The position numbers were made by a program, and so were the translations under genes. Under the pieces are notes generated by a model, which was not told where the DNA came from, ran no database searches, and saw only the letters and a program-made list of their open reading frames with translations. Shown here one piece after another: positions 11 through 5,482 of a stretch of 5,482 nucleotides of DNA. The stretch's first letter is position 1. The number at the start of each line of letters is the position of its first letter. Location of the stretch: NCBI GenBank assembly GCA_001799195.1, contig MGSU01000217.1, positions 1,924 to 7,405 on the forward strand, in the 5' to 3' direction. Origin of the DNA: Deltaproteobacteria bacterium RIFOXYA12_FULL_61_11. GTDB taxonomy: Bacteria > Bdellovibrionota_F > JAHFAK01 > YA12-FULL-61-11.

Positions 11-41
11 ATCGACAACTGCAGGATGCTAAGTTGTCGAT
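11..41 (-). terminator. Possible transcription terminator at the array's distal end
   Basis: ATCGACAACT (11-20) and AGTTGTCGAT (32-41) are a perfect 10-bp inverted repeat around an 11-nt loop. In minus-strand RNA the hairpin comes directly after the truncated last repeat and is followed by ATTTCTC, a short, imperfect U-rich tail. Position and shape suit an intrinsic terminator for the array transcript. The stem is only moderately GC-rich and the tail is weak, so it could also be an RNA-stabilising 3' hairpin or the remnant of a hairpin-containing spacer. Confidence 0.4.
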
Positions 42-65
42 GAACATCAGGGAACTGTCTCGGAC
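29..65 (-). repeat. Degenerate leader-distal terminal repeat
   Basis: Positions 44-65 match the last 22 bp of the + strand repeat exactly, but 29-43 do not match its first 15 bp. In transcript sense the 5' part is intact while the right arm of the stem and the whole ATGGAAAC handle are missing, so this copy should not be a normal Cas6 substrate. Loss of the far end of the last repeat is typical of the leader-distal end of arrays. The replaced segment forms one arm of the hairpin at 11-41. Confidence 0.93.
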
Positions 66-653
66 AAGAAAGTCGCGTGGTACTGGCACGCGGAAGGGTG
101 TTTCCATCCCTTCTACATCAGGGAACTGTCTCGGACAACGTACCGAAAGAAGATGATCACTAGCGAGGAAGTGCGTTTCCATCCCTTCTACATCAGGGAA
201 CTGTCTCGGACAGTCGATCATGGAAGCAGCGCAAGCATGCGCTCCGGCGTTTCCATCCCTTCTACATCAGGGAACTGTCTCGGACCTGTAGCACCTGTCC
301 CATGGGCTCCAACCTCTGTGTTGGTTTCCATCCCTTCTACATCAGGGAACTGTCTCGGACGGATTAAGCCTAGAGCGTCTTCATTCTTTTCCGCCGTTTC
401 CATCCCTTCTACATCAGGGAACTGTCTCGGACCCAAGGTTAGCAGCGGTTGTTGAGCGCAATAAGTTAATGTTTCCATCCCTTCTACATCAGGGAACTGT
501 CTCGGACGACGCCAAAACGAATACCCAGCTCTCGACGCTGAACGTTTCCATCCCTTCTACATCAGGGAACTGTCTCGGACCTCGCAAGAGGTCTAAGTGG
601 AGGTAGGCAACAAGAGGTTTCCATCCCTTCTACATCAGGGAACTGTCTCGGAC

Positions 654-687
654 TGGGGCGTCAGTGGAAGTCACCATCCAGGTCCTT
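654..687. other. Spacer S9, shares 16 bp with S54
   Basis: This 34-bp spacer holds TCACCATCCAGGTCCT at 671-686, which recurs exactly at the start of S54 (3912-3927). On the + strand it reads GASVEVTIQVL. The shared part is read in the same frame in both spacers, giving the common peptide TIQVL, so both probably come from overlapping stretches of related targets. Confidence 0.75.
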
Positions 688-801
688 GTTTCCATCCCTT
701 CTACATCAGGGAACTGTCTCGGACTCGCCGCCCTTACGGGCGGTTGCTGGATCGCAAAGAAGACGTTTCCATCCCTTCTACATCAGGGAACTGTCTCGGA
801 C

Positions 802-839
802 ATTGACGCCTTGTCTTCGGCAGACAAGGGTTATATGCA
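802..839. other. Spacer S11 with an 8-bp stem-loop
   Basis: CCTTGTCT (809-816) pairs perfectly with AGACAAGG (822-829) around TCGGC. The same strand reads IDALSSADKGYM without a stop, so the hairpin appears to lie inside a coding sequence. The protospacer source is unknown. Confidence 0.7.
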
Positions 840-1236
840 GTTTCCATCCCTTCTACATCAGGGAACTGTCTCGGACTTGATGCCGTTTTTCACGGCTCAA
901 TTCAACCCTTGTTTCCATCCCTTCTACATCAGGGAACTGTCTCGGACTCTCGACTACGACGCAAGGAGTTTGCTCGGTACGGAGTTTCCATCCCTTCTAC
1001 ATCAGGGAACTGTCTCGGACGAATTTTTCAAACAACAATTCAAAGTTGTGAACAAGTTTCCATCCCTTCTACATCAGGGAACTGTCTCGGACGACCACGT
1101 TGCGCGATGATATCCCTCGGTTATTGACGTTTCCATCCCTTCTACATCAGGGAACTGTCTCGGACATTGGTCGACTCGAAGGGCCCTTTTGCCCTGTACG
1201 TTTCCATCCCTTCTACATCAGGGAACTGTCTCGGAC

Positions 1237-1270
1237 GGTGAAGACGTTTAATAAACGTCTTCACACACTA
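1237..1270. other. Spacer S17, nearly all one palindrome
   Basis: GTGAAGACGTTTA (1238-1250) and TAAACGTCTTCAC (1252-1264) are perfect inverted repeats around one A. As RNA this gives a 12-bp stem with an AAT triloop filling 27 of 34 bp. The + strand reads VKTFNKRLHTL. A crRNA this self-complementary would fold on itself, which is unusual for a guide. Confidence 0.85.
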
Positions 1271-1522
1271 GTTTCCATCCCTTCTACATCAGGGAACTGT
1301 CTCGGACTACGAACTCCATCGCCGACGTCGCCCTCAAGGGTGTTTCCATCCCTTCTACATCAGGGAACTGTCTCGGACAGAAAGTAGCGAAACTCAAAAA
1401 GAGAAACCAGCGCTGTTTCCATCCCTTCTACATCAGGGAACTGTCTCGGACTTTGTAAACTTTGACCGAAAAATCTCGCGCGCGTGTTTCCATCCCTTCT
1501 ACATCAGGGAACTGTCTCGGAC

Positions 1523-1556
1523 ATAACCTCATCAGTGAGGTCCTTGGAGGACCGAA
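1523..1556. other. Spacer S21 with two overlapping hairpins
   Basis: ACCTCA/TGAGGT (1526-1531 and 1536-1541, 4-nt loop) and GGTCCT/AGGACC (1539-1544 and 1548-1553, 3-nt loop) share three bases, so they compete or stack. The + strand reads ITSSVRSLEDR. Confidence 0.75.
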
Positions 1557-2321
1557 GTTTCCATCCCTTCTACATCAGGGAACTGTCTCGGACCGCTCGC
1601 AAGGAGCTTGCGCTTTCCAAGGTCGGCAAGTTTCCATCCCTTCTACATCAGGGAACTGTCTCGGACCTTGCGAAGGAAGTAAAGATCGAGACTACCGAGG
1701 AAGTTTCCATCCCTTCTACATCAGGGAACTGTCTCGGACTCCGATTGTAAATGCGCGATCGGCAAACAGGAGAAGGTTTCCATCCCTTCTACATCAGGGA
1801 ACTGTCTCGGACTGAGGCAAAGCCTTATACTTGATGCATTGCCAAGGCGTTTCCATCCCTTCTACATCAGGGAACTGTCTCGGACTTAGCACAACTTCGG
1901 GGGATCCCGGGCACTACTGTTTCCATCCCTTCTACATCAGGGAACTGTCTCGGACTGCGCAGCTTCAAGAACCCGAGTGCGGGCCTGATGTTTCCATCCC
2001 TTCTACATCAGGGAACTGTCTCGGACAGCCTGTAGTGAAGGTAGATTTGTTGGAGAGATCTCTAGTTTCCATCCCTTCTACATCAGGGAACTGTCTCGGA
2101 CTGAAAAGGAGGAAACAGGAGGAGAAGAACGAGTTGCGTTTCCATCCCTTCTACATCAGGGAACTGTCTCGGACGACCTCGAGCGCATGAAAAACATCAA
2201 CGCGGCTTAGTTTCCATCCCTTCTACATCAGGGAACTGTCTCGGACTGTGGCGCAATACCCGGGCTTACCCCCGGCCAGATTATGTTTCCATCCCTTCTA
2301 CATCAGGGAACTGTCTCGGAC

Positions 2322-2354
2322 CCCCCTATGACGTCTACATAGGGAGGGCGGGAA
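2322..2354. other. Spacer S32 with a 7-bp stem-loop
   Basis: CCCTATG (2324-2330) pairs with CATAGGG (2338-2344) around ACGTCTA. The + strand frame reads PYDVYIGRAG. Confidence 0.7.
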
Positions 2355-3408
2355 GTTTCCATCCCTTCTACATCAGGGAACTGTCTCGGACCGCAAAACC
2401 GGAGAAGATGAAGATGAAGATGAAAATGTTTCCATCCCTTCTACATCAGGGAACTGTCTCGGACGACACCCGCGGCCTCGATGACCGCGTGCGCGTGGTG
2501 TTTCCATCCCTTCTACATCAGGGAACTGTCTCGGACTCGGCCAGCTTGTGGAAGTCAGCAAGGTCCTCGTCTCGTTTCCATCCCTTCTACATCAGGGAAC
2601 TGTCTCGGACTTGCCACTATCCAGATAGAAGAGGTGATAGGCGACAAGGCGTTTCCATCCCTTCTACATCAGGGAACTGTCTCGGACGGGAATAGCCATT
2701 ACTCTTTCGTTTCGACAATGGAGTTTCCATCCCTTCTACATCAGGGAACTGTCTCGGACTGGCATGAGCGACGCAGTTCAAACAGCGGCCAGACAGTTTC
2801 CATCCCTTCTACATCAGGGAACTGTCTCGGACAGGCGCCGGGACATGCCTCTTCCACGGAAGCGACTACCAAGTTTCCATCCCTTCTACATCAGGGAACT
2901 GTCTCGGACAACGAGTCTCTTCCTCTCTCGCCGCCGCTTTTCCGGTTTCCATCCCTTCTACATCAGGGAACTGTCTCGGACAGGGCGAGACATTTGACGT
3001 CGCCGTGCAGGCGTTTCCATCCCTTCTACATCAGGGAACTGTCTCGGACTGGAAGCGTGCCCCGCATTTGGATTGGTCCACCCAGTTTCCATCCCTTCTA
3101 CATCAGGGAACTGTCTCGGACGTTATATCCCCACGCTAAACAACGGGGAAACCGGGTTTCCATCCCTTCTACATCAGGGAACTGTCTCGGACACCCCCAA
3201 AGGGACCCAGGAAGTTAACCCGTCCAAGTTTCCATCCCTTCTACATCAGGGAACTGTCTCGGACCCGTTACTATGATCATCGTCGAGTGTAGGACACGTT
3301 TCCATCCCTTCTACATCAGGGAACTGTCTCGGACTGGCGGATCCAGGTTGACAACCAAGGAGATTCCCCATGTTTCCATCCCTTCTACATCAGGGAACTG
3401 TCTCGGAC

Positions 3409-3440
3409 ACCTGCTTCTCGGGGTCCCCGAGCCGGAGGTC
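3409..3440. other. Spacer S47 with a 15-bp odd palindrome
   Basis: CTCGGGG (3417-3423) and CCCCGAG (3425-3431) mirror each other around a single T, giving a 6-bp stem with a GTC loop as RNA. The + strand reads LLLGVPEPEV. Confidence 0.75.
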
Positions 3441-3911
3441 GTTTCCATCCCTTCTACATCAGGGAACTGTCTCGGACCTCACAAAAGAAGAAATACTACC
3501 CTCCCTCTTCGTTTCCATCCCTTCTACATCAGGGAACTGTCTCGGACGCTGAGAAGGCCAAAGTCAAGAAAGTCAAGAAAGCGGTTTCCATCCCTTCTAC
3601 ATCAGGGAACTGTCTCGGACTCCAGCAGGCCTTTGCTCCCTTGATCCAGGTGACGTTTCCATCCCTTCTACATCAGGGAACTGTCTCGGACTAATTCCGT
3701 AAGGATCAGAAATCATTGAGAGGGAGTTTCCATCCCTTCTACATCAGGGAACTGTCTCGGACTTTAAAGAGTGGCCCCTTAACATTGCAAAGGCGTTGTT
3801 TCCATCCCTTCTACATCAGGGAACTGTCTCGGACAGGCCCTGTCGTGGGCGGCAGGCCAGAAACCATACACCCAGTTTCCATCCCTTCTACATCAGGGAA
3901 CTGTCTCGGAC

Positions 3912-3947
3912 TCACCATCCAGGTCCTACAGGAGCGCGTCCGGTGGG
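3912..3947. other. Spacer S54, overlaps the target of S9
   Basis: It begins with the 16 bp shared with S9, then continues into new sequence. With the last repeat base the + strand reads LTIQVLQERVRW. Just after the shared block S9 has T and S54 has A, so the two sources are related rather than necessarily identical. Confidence 0.75.
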
Positions 3948-4203
3948 GTTTCCATCCCTTCTACATCAGGGAACTGTCTCGGACTACAGCCTTGAGGGTT
4001 TTGCAGCCCAAGGTTTTGCAGGTGTTTCCATCCCTTCTACATCAGGGAACTGTCTCGGACAGTCAACGCCTAATCTCTATCCCTAGCGTTCCTGTTTCCA
4101 TCCCTTCTACATCAGGGAACTGTCTCGGACCAGGGGACATGAAAACAAAGTACAGCATTTTGCCCGGTTTCCATCCCTTCTACATCAGGGAACTGTCTCG
4201 GAC

Positions 4204-4237
4204 TCAGCATTCGCGAATATTCGGGTTTGCGAATATT
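4204..4237. other. Spacer S58 with an 8-bp stem-loop and direct repeat
   Basis: AATATTCG (4216-4223) pairs with CGAATATT (4230-4237) around GGTTTG. GCGAATATT is also present twice in direct orientation. Readable as SAFANIRVCEY or QHSRIFGFANI on the + strand. Confidence 0.7.
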
Positions 4238-4644
4238 GTTTCCATCCCTTCTACATCAGGGAACTGTCTCGGACTTCCCCGATAAAATCGGGAGCTTGTT
4301 CTTTGCGCAGTTTCCATCCCTTCTACATCAGGGAACTGTCTCGGACGGTCCCACGATGATTACATGGATCGTTGTCGTTGCATATGTTTCCATCCCTTCT
4401 ACATCAGGGAACTGTCTCGGACGAAAAAGGTATTCTGCCCGATCTCGCATGCAGAAGTCGTTTCCATCCCTTCTACATCAGGGAACTGTCTCGGACGGCT
4501 GAGCGTAAGGCATTGAATGAAAAGGCTGCAAGTGGTTTCCATCCCTTCTACATCAGGGAACTGTCTCGGACAACCGTAAGAAGGCTCTGCAACGAACTCG
4601 GTTTCAAGTTTCCATCCCTTCTACATCAGGGAACTGTCTCGGAC

Positions 4645-4682
4645 AGGAAGACGACGACCTGCCCTTCTGAGAAATGAACAAA
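4645..4682. other. Spacer S64, matches the 3' end of an ssb-like gene
   Basis: On the + strand, from 4647, the codons read EDDDLPF followed by TGA (4668-4670), then GAA and an ATG at 4674 that starts MNK. An acidic tail ending DDDLPF or DDDIPF is the conserved C-terminus of bacterial, phage and plasmid single-stranded DNA-binding proteins. The spacer therefore probably spans an ssb stop codon and the start of the next gene. The source may be a phage, a plasmid or a chromosome. If the array is transcribed on the minus strand, the crRNA is antisense to this mRNA. Confidence 0.7.
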
Positions 4683-4985
4683 GTTTCCATCCCTTCTACA
4701 TCAGGGAACTGTCTCGGACGCATCCTCGGTGTAATCCCTACCGACGTTGTGGAGACGTTTCCATCCCTTCTACATCAGGGAACTGTCTCGGACGTCTCTT
4801 CCTCTTCTTCGACCGAGAAGGTCGAGGTGTTTCCATCCCTTCTACATCAGGGAACTGTCTCGGACTGCCGTCGCGTACGGCAAAGGGGTAGATCTGGCCT
4901 GGTTTCCATCCCTTCTACATCAGGGAACTGTCTCGGACTGCCACCCTCTATGTCCCGCAACCGGCGCGGGGATGCAAGCGGAAAA

Positions 4986-5139
4986 TGCGTTACCCCCCCC
5001 TCCCTCGAAAAATAACTCATTAGGGGGTGGTGTGGATAAGTATTAACTATCATAAATTCATTAGAGAAAAAACATGCGTTATCGCGCAATGCGTCAGAAT
5101 GCAAGATCATAGGGTTACATTTTGCCGGGGGGTAACGCA
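4986..5139. repeat. 13-bp inverted repeat within the leader
   Basis: TGCGTTACCCCCC at 4986-4998 and GGGGGGTAACGCA at 5127-5139 are perfect reverse complements, 128 bp apart. The inner part of the left arm (ACCCCC, 4992-4997) could instead pair with GGGGGT at 5023-5028. This could be a pair of sites for one DNA-binding protein or a long-range fold in the leader RNA. No known site is recognised. Confidence 0.7.
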
Positions 5140-5150
5140 ATTTTTTGCCG

Positions 5151-5163
5151 CAACAAATTGAAT
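5151..5163. promoter_or_regulatory. Weak IHF-like site in the leader
   Basis: CAACAAATTGAAT fits the reversed IHF consensus YAANNNNTTGATW with one mismatch and is flanked by A/T-rich DNA. IHF bends leaders during spacer integration in some proteobacterial type I systems. It lies over 200 bp from the first repeat, farther than in those systems, and the host is not known to have IHF. Confidence 0.15.
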
Positions 5164-5236
5164 TTTTAGAATAGCAGTACAAAAGAGGGGGTTTTAGGTC
5201 GATCGCCATGAGCAACACCTCAACCGGGATAGCACC

Positions 5237-5265
5237 AGTGTACCCATAACCAAATGATCTGCCAA
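5237..5265 (-). promoter_or_regulatory. Candidate promoter for the array
   Basis: On the minus strand TTGGCA (5265-5260) is 17 bp from TACACT (5242-5237), matching the bacterial housekeeping sigma consensus at 5 of 6 and 4 of 6 bases with ideal spacing. Transcription would start near 5230 and run about 290 nt before the first repeat. Another TATGAT-like box lies at 5049-5054 but without a good -35. Hexamer matches of this quality occur by chance, so this remains a candidate. Confidence 0.35.
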
Positions 5266-5307
5266 GTGGAAATGAGGGAAATCGTCAAGATTCAATCATT
5301 GAGGGCA

Positions 5308-5371
5308 TGAGAACCTACCGGCGGCTACGAGCGCCGGTGAGCACAGACGTGCTTCATTGTCGGGTTTCTCA
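5308..5371. ncRNA. Possible branched RNA structure, strand uncertain
   Basis: Three nested pairings occur within 64 nt. TGAGAA (5308-5313) pairs with TTCTCA (5366-5371), extended by CC/GG past a one-base bulge. Inside it lie ACCGGCG/CGCCGGT (5317-5323 and 5332-5338, 8-nt loop) and AGCAC/GTGCT (5340-5344 and 5349-5353, AGAC loop). On the + strand TCTTTTT (5373-5379) follows, as in a terminator. It is not a tRNA: there is no TpsiC-type arm. No family is recognised. It could also be a terminator or chance pairing upstream of the leader. Confidence 0.25.
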
Positions 5372-5398
5372 CTCTTTTTCGGGAAAGTAATACTACCT

Positions 5399-5416
5399 TG
5401 CCCCATTGTGGGGGCA
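5399..5416. other. Stem-loop in the right flank
   Basis: TGCCCC (5399-5404) and GGGGCA (5411-5416) pair around ATTGTG. No T-run follows on either strand, so it is not a clear terminator. Confidence 0.4.
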
Positions 5417-5442
5417 GCGATGAAGAGCGTCTATTCTTCGCG

Positions 5443-5460
5443 CAGGAAACTCAGGAAACT
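5443..5460. repeat. Tandem 9-bp repeat
   Basis: CAGGAAACT occurs twice head to tail (5443-5451 and 5452-5460). Its meaning is unknown. Confidence 0.6.
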
Positions 5461-5482
5461 CGAGCGATGAGGGACACTGCCG

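Follow-up and report, generated by a model that had tools for sequence, protein, structure and literature searches.

Reverse transcriptases (RTs) adjacent or fused to Cas1 are found in a group of clustered regularly interspaced short palindromic repeats (CRISPR) modules such as those of Marinomonas mediterranea and Arthrospira platensis (type III-B), whose spacers are about 36 nucleotides (nt) long and untraceable. RT-Cas1 systems acquire spacers from RNA (PMC5513706, PMC11014452), and the spacer sources of RT-linked arrays have been termed enigmatic (PMC5513706). An enrichment of hairpins among these spacers goes unmentioned in the searchable descriptions of RT-linked systems, and the word "hairpin" is absent from the searchable text of PMC5513706. 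Stem-loops are, however, a described feature of type III-A adaptation in Streptococcus thermophilus and Staphylococcus epidermidis, which is enriched for stem-loop regions, for the coding strand and for positions just downstream of start codons, and which needs no RT (PMC9048733). Folded single strands were suggested as the preferred substrates of this adaptation, and type III spacer lengths were found to centre on 36 nt (PMC9048733). We analyzed a 5,482-nt stretch of DNA (the window) from the genome bin of Deltaproteobacteria bacterium RIFOXYA12_FULL_61_11, which comprises 4.64 Mb in 342 contigs. The window covers positions 1924-7405 of contig MGSU01000217.1 (C217), which ends at 7405, and is occupied by a CRISPR array in which hairpin-forming spacers are about fivefold over-represented.

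The window resembles both described systems. Its spacers are as long and as untraceable as those of RT-linked modules, from which it differs in showing no visible RT or cas gene, and it has the hairpins and the coding-strand bias of the type III-A data. Those data come from laboratory acquisition, often from host rRNA, tRNA or plasmid origins, whereas the window holds natural spacers with no match to host or Rfam sequences. On balance, we lean towards the view that this is probably a type III array of the class fed by an RT together with Cas1-Cas2, and that its adaptation prefers hairpin-forming segments of invader transcripts.

Hairpin-forming spacers in the window

The array occupies positions 66-4938 and, read on the minus strand, consists of 67 exact copies of a 37-nt direct repeat (GTCCGAGACAGTTCCCTGATGTAGAAGGGATGGAAAC) plus a partial one, with 67 unique spacers of similar length (31-40 nt, mean 35.7). 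Counting a spacer as hairpin-forming if it contained a perfect stem of 6 base pairs (bp) or more, we found 13 such spacers (19.4%). The longest stem, 12 bp around a 3-nt loop, is in S17 (1238-1264), followed by the 8-bp stems of S11 (809-829) and S58 (4216-4237) and the 7-bp stem of S32 (2324-2344). Stems of 6 bp are present in S3 (228-243), S10 (728-743), S21 (1526-1541), S22 (1598-1612), S47 (3417-3431), S59 (4278-4292), S66 (4809-4825), and S67 (4866-4882). An earlier, sequence-only reading of this DNA had listed these twelve, and each is present where it was placed; the thirteenth is the 6-bp stem of S1 (74-92, CGCGTG-gtactgg-CACGCG).

Dinucleotide shuffles of each spacer gave an expectation of 2.6-2.7 hairpin spacers, close to the two or so that the sequence-only reading had estimated for random 36-mers. 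None of 2000 whole-set shuffles reached 13, and the exact Poisson-binomial P was 3.8e-7 for at least 13 and 2.9e-6 for at least 12. The excess was stable across loop limits of 4-20 and stem thresholds of 5, 6, and 7 bp. Ordinary phage DNA had been expected to lack hairpins at this density, and it does: random 36-mers of lambda, T7, Mu, and phiX174 contained 2.4-4.2% hairpins, with 3.3% for the double-stranded DNA (dsDNA) phages. Random fragments of two other contigs of the bin gave 3-4%, and six other arrays (including Synechocystis pSYSA, Thermus pTT27, and the Cas9 array of the same bin) had eight hairpin spacers among 190, where 6.5 were expected.

Folding energies differed only modestly on average from those of dinucleotide shuffles (mean z ~ -0.4 on either strand), a shift nearly all accounted for by the 13 spacers with hairpins. 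The remaining 54 showed no excess structure (-0.17 ± 0.28 kcal/mol relative to shuffles). Within the spacers, the stems tilt weakly and not significantly toward the 3' end of the CRISPR RNA (crRNA). Strand asymmetry in G-U pairing, as a means of telling RNA from DNA hairpins, was undiscriminating, even for ssRNA phages of the Leviviricetes. Intrinsic terminators were also considered as the hairpin source and rejected, because T-runs are absent after the stems.

Comparison with RT-linked and RT-less arrays

We compared the window with CRISPR loci that surround Cas1 genes in the Chloroflexota. An unrelated hit had led to this phylum, and its loci were taken regardless of hairpins. Further RT loci were gathered using a profile of the RT type found at locus L190, bringing the survey to 66 arrays, and an array was called RT-linked when an RT was present in the fetched stretch; L213 was included because it shares a contig region with the RT-cas1 pair of genome G016. 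The 16 RT-linked arrays contained 96 hairpin spacers among 610 (15.7%), 3.7 times the 25.9 expected, while the 50 arrays with no RT in the fetched stretch contained 173 among 2907 (6.0%), 1.8 times the 93.8 expected. When arrays with 20 or more spacers were compared, the two groups differed significantly at the array level (P=0.007), and a hairpin rate of 19% was reached by three of seven RT-linked arrays and by none of 37 RT-less arrays. The richest loci were L190 (18 of 51 spacers, P 1e-10), L184 (14 of 56), and L213 (29 of 151, P 4e-12), with stems of up to 13 bp, and at all three an RT (RVT_1) adjoins cas1. The RTs that we aligned share 42-76% identity with the L190 RT, and their nearest NCBIfam model is a group II intron RT. 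This association between RT and spacer hairpins appears to be new.

The window is statistically like the RT-linked set. Its 13 hairpin spacers against 2.6 expected are unremarkable under the RT-linked fit (P=0.21) and rare under the RT-less fit (P=0.0012), so that its hairpin rate agrees with that of RT-linked arrays, a trait first described in this survey. Spacers that do not form hairpins were more folded in RT-linked arrays (-0.75 ± 0.15 kcal/mol) than in RT-less arrays (about -0.27 kcal/mol).

Repeat architecture and strand bias

The repeat ends in an 8-nt 5' handle for the crRNA, ATGGAAAC, which itself ends in GAAAC as type III handles do, a weak indicator given that other types share this handle. 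For 37-nt repeats we defined a 13-4-8-4-8 layout (13 nt, a 4-bp stem arm, an 8-nt loop, the second stem arm, and the 8-nt handle), which was found in 15 of 16 RT-linked arrays versus three of 50 RT-less arrays. The window repeat has the same layout, GTCCGAGACAGTT-CCCT-GATGTAGA-AGGG-ATGGAAAC, so that it is alike to the Chloroflexota RT-linked arrays in repeat architecture as well as in hairpin level.

Because degenerate repeats lie at the left end of the array and the minus-strand repeat ends in ATGGAAAC, we place the leader on the right and predict minus-strand crRNAs. With this orientation, the coding-like strand is the one opposite the crRNA for 44 window spacers, versus 23 with the reverse arrangement (P 0.003); the corresponding share is 58.7% of 554 spacers in RT-linked arrays and 54.1% in RT-less arrays. 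Repeat layout and strand bias both fit the expectation for RNA-directed memory.

Proposed mode of adaptation

The most economical explanation of the hairpin excess is a preference during acquisition. We propose that the adaptation machinery preferentially captures segments able to fold into short hairpins, and that these would come from transcripts of diverse invaders, taken up as RNA, as complementary DNA, or as displaced single-stranded DNA (ssDNA) of transcribed genes. Such a preference would leave perfect stems of 6 bp or longer about fivefold over-represented, and minus-strand crRNAs, mostly antisense to coding sequence, would then guide cleavage of invader RNA. Since the 54 non-hairpin spacers are ordinary, we infer for the window that the bias arose at capture rather than in a uniformly structured source. 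The earlier suggestion that structured nucleic acid was captured or selected is thus supported by the low hairpin rates in DNA phages, in the six other arrays, and in RT-less Chloroflexota, whereas the Leviviricetes source that it named is not (see below).

The Chloroflexota loci give an indication of what may be captured. In three RT-linked arrays the hairpin spacers match host genomes only inside arrays, with one exception at 94% in genome G170, which argues that their sources are not host genomes. Several of the L190 spacers overlap one another; they appear to span gene starts or coding stretches with hairpins that include ATG. More broadly, hairpin spacers make up as much as 35% at the Chloroflexota RT loci (L190, L184, L213, L230, and others), and several stems have an ATG within or close to the loop (read as CAT in the crRNA), which gives the impression that hairpins at gene starts were captured. 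Two related L190 spacers have a stem in common although a C-G pair in one is T-A in the other, both changes being synonymous and at third codon positions (GCC...GCG versus GCT...GCA, all Ala), which suggests that the sources carry RNA structure under selection.

The broad spread of spacer lengths around 36 nt, the handle, the layout, and the hairpin level together suggest that the array probably works like, and belongs to, the RT-linked class, to which it is not formally assigned. Several observations weigh against this placement and against the proposed mode of adaptation. No RAMP gene (PF03787) was found in the 87% complete bin, in which Cas10 was not separately searched, and no RT was found there with PF00078 or the A2 profile; the two Cas1 genes of the bin sit in type I-C-like and Cas9 loci. 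The flanks of the array have a G+C content of 44-53%, compared with about 60% for the bin. In the survey, hairpin rates of RT-linked arrays varied from 0 to 35%, and these arrays come from one phylum, with a type III assignment taken from the literature. Locus L164, from a genome in which no RT gene was found (G242), has 13 hairpin spacers among 91, including a 16-bp perfect stem, so an RT is no strict condition for hairpin richness. Finally, our searches found no protospacer for the window spacers. Blastn of the whole window against phages and plasmids gave nothing significant, and the spacers matched only the array itself when compared with their own genome and one genome of the same class. 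Rfam identified no structured RNA family in the spacers, the repeat pattern retrieved no related array from genome contigs or viral contigs, and the L190 and L213 spacers likewise had no match among phages. The flank composition indicates that the contig may be mis-binned, and the contig ends beside the leader; the missing RT and RAMP genes are therefore better read as a gap in the data than as a sign that the system lacks them.

Alternative sources of the hairpins

The LEVIVIRICETES reading traced the spacers to the Leviviricetes, single-stranded RNA (ssRNA) phages with genomes that fold densely within coding regions. Their hairpin density is indeed of the same order as that of the window: in 91 Leviviricetes genomes or fragments, 36-mers formed hairpins at a mean of 9.4% (3-17%), 3.2 times the shuffled rate, compared with the 2.4-4.2% noted above for dsDNA phages, and the coding-strand bias of the window spacers counts in the same direction. 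The window rate nevertheless exceeds this mean, with P 0.009 if every spacer were Leviviricetes-derived, and its non-hairpin spacers lack the folding of comparable Leviviricetes pieces (-0.97 kcal/mol, P 0.01-0.06). We also built profiles of the Leviviricetes RNA-dependent RNA polymerase (RdRp) and maturation protein with 15 genomes held out. Above 3 bits the RdRp profile recognized 1-11 of 67 spacer-sized pieces from the held-out genomes (mean 7.1) but none of the 67 window spacers (best -1.6), and the maturation profile recognized 0-5 of 67 and none, respectively; spacers of RT-linked and other arrays, and shuffles, also gave nothing above 3 bits. No spacer had a nucleotide match in a phage collection with 1,698 MS2-like replicase records, nor in IMG/VR, which includes Leviviricetes and was scanned with exact or codon-degenerate patterns (few patterns, one spacer per scan, low power). 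S33 and S49 encode runs of Lys or of Asp/Glu, which we judged unlike ssRNA phage proteins. A majority origin in Leviviricetes is thus unlikely and a minority share is possible; as an account of the array as a whole, we consider this source very improbable. A related but less remote alternative is that the window and the RT-linked arrays are a fossil record of structured RNA genomes from an unsampled group of RNA viruses other than Leviviricetes, with conserved hairpins in coding regions, so that the source and not the capture is hairpin-rich. The stem preserved by paired synonymous changes at L190 supports such a source, and the stronger folding of RT-linked non-hairpin spacers keeps it open for those arrays. 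The window's own non-hairpin spacers, with no excess folding, are contrary to it, gene-start hairpins occur in the mRNAs of DNA phages as well, and no spacer matched an RNA virus; we regard it as unlikely, both for the window and as a general account of RT-linked arrays.

The preferred reading, capture of foldable transcript segments in an RT-linked setting, also has to be weighed against explanations that change the machinery. Type III Cas1-Cas2 could prefer ssDNA hairpins with no help from an RT, as published for the type III-A systems of S. thermophilus and S. epidermidis (PMC9048733). The lack of an RT in the bin is consistent with this, and the coding-strand bias would fit displaced single strands. 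The surveyed RT-less arrays, whose types are unassigned, had however only a 1.8-fold excess and never reached 19%, and the window repeat has the layout of the RT-linked set, so RT-free capture seems to us an outside candidate, with a low probability. Hairpins could instead be made at capture from a hairpin-free source if an RT copied one arm by snap-back synthesis, which RT-Cas1/Cas2 performs in vitro (PMC11014452) and which would agree with the perfection of the stems. Snap-back synthesis needs a stem flush with the spacer end, but most stems are internal with unpaired flanks on both sides, and only 28 of 95 stems in RT-linked arrays and five of 13 in the window come as close as 3 nt to the 3' end of the crRNA; we find this explanation hardly credible. 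The excess could also reflect chance, or a reader's choice from a large number of windows and features, an explanation favored by the hairpins having been picked out after looking at the sequence. The corresponding P of 4e-7 against shuffles and 0.001 against real RT-less arrays, and the independent recurrence of hairpin richness at L213 and L190, make it highly improbable.

Flanks of the array and neighboring genes at other loci

At the trailer end, a truncated or degenerate repeat at positions 41-65 (minus strand) retains only part of the sequence (AACATCAGGGAACTGTCTCGGAC). A perfect inverted repeat, ATCGACAACT ... AGTTGTCGAT, was read at the trailer edge (15-45, minus strand) and is possibly an array terminator or the remnant of an old spacer. 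To the left of the window, another degenerate repeat copy (CAGTCAGGGAGCTGTCTCGGAT), separated from it by a stretch of N (L011:1841-1923), indicates that the array trailer extends past the window start. The inferred leader side, placed by the repeat degeneracy at the opposite end, covers positions 4939-5482 (minus strand) up to the contig end, and in these 544 bases after the last repeat no gene, and no cas gene, was recognized. Rfam matched the repeat weakly to CRISPR-DR32 on the minus strand, below the gathering threshold. Spacers S9 (654-687) and S54 (3912-3947) have 16 nt in common on the same strand (TCACCATCCAGGTCCT), where shuffled sets reached a maximum of 13, which suggests that they are overlapping pieces of one source with a coding-like frame, GASVEVTIQVLQERVRW.

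Other genes were observed near cas1 at the loci that we retrieved. A protein of about 460-490 amino acids is encoded directly upstream of the RT at L190:6371-7756, L222:6639-8075, L230:9466-10905, and L226:8146-9603; it had no Pfam family (L230 and L226 copies) and no PADLOC family (L230 copy). A fusion of a trypsin-like protease and a SAVED domain (L205:5751-7280), near the G016 RT-cas1 pair, is suggestive of cyclic-oligonucleotide signaling. In the bin itself, similar proteins (VVFKxKxIRR...WWFSVxDV...) are encoded in the type I-C-like cas operon (L013:7238-8416) and beside cas9 (L012:7884-8708), and by eye they resemble BRO/antirepressor N-terminal domains.

Implications for RT-linked systems

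Hairpin density can be read from the spacers themselves, with no need of a protospacer, and as a property that distinguishes RT-linked from RT-less arrays it would give a handle on what RT-linked systems capture. It would also quickly flag arrays whose cas genes are unassembled, as in the window. If the spacers do derive from structured RNA genomes, spacer hairpin density would allow memory of RNA origin to be recognized from sequence alone.

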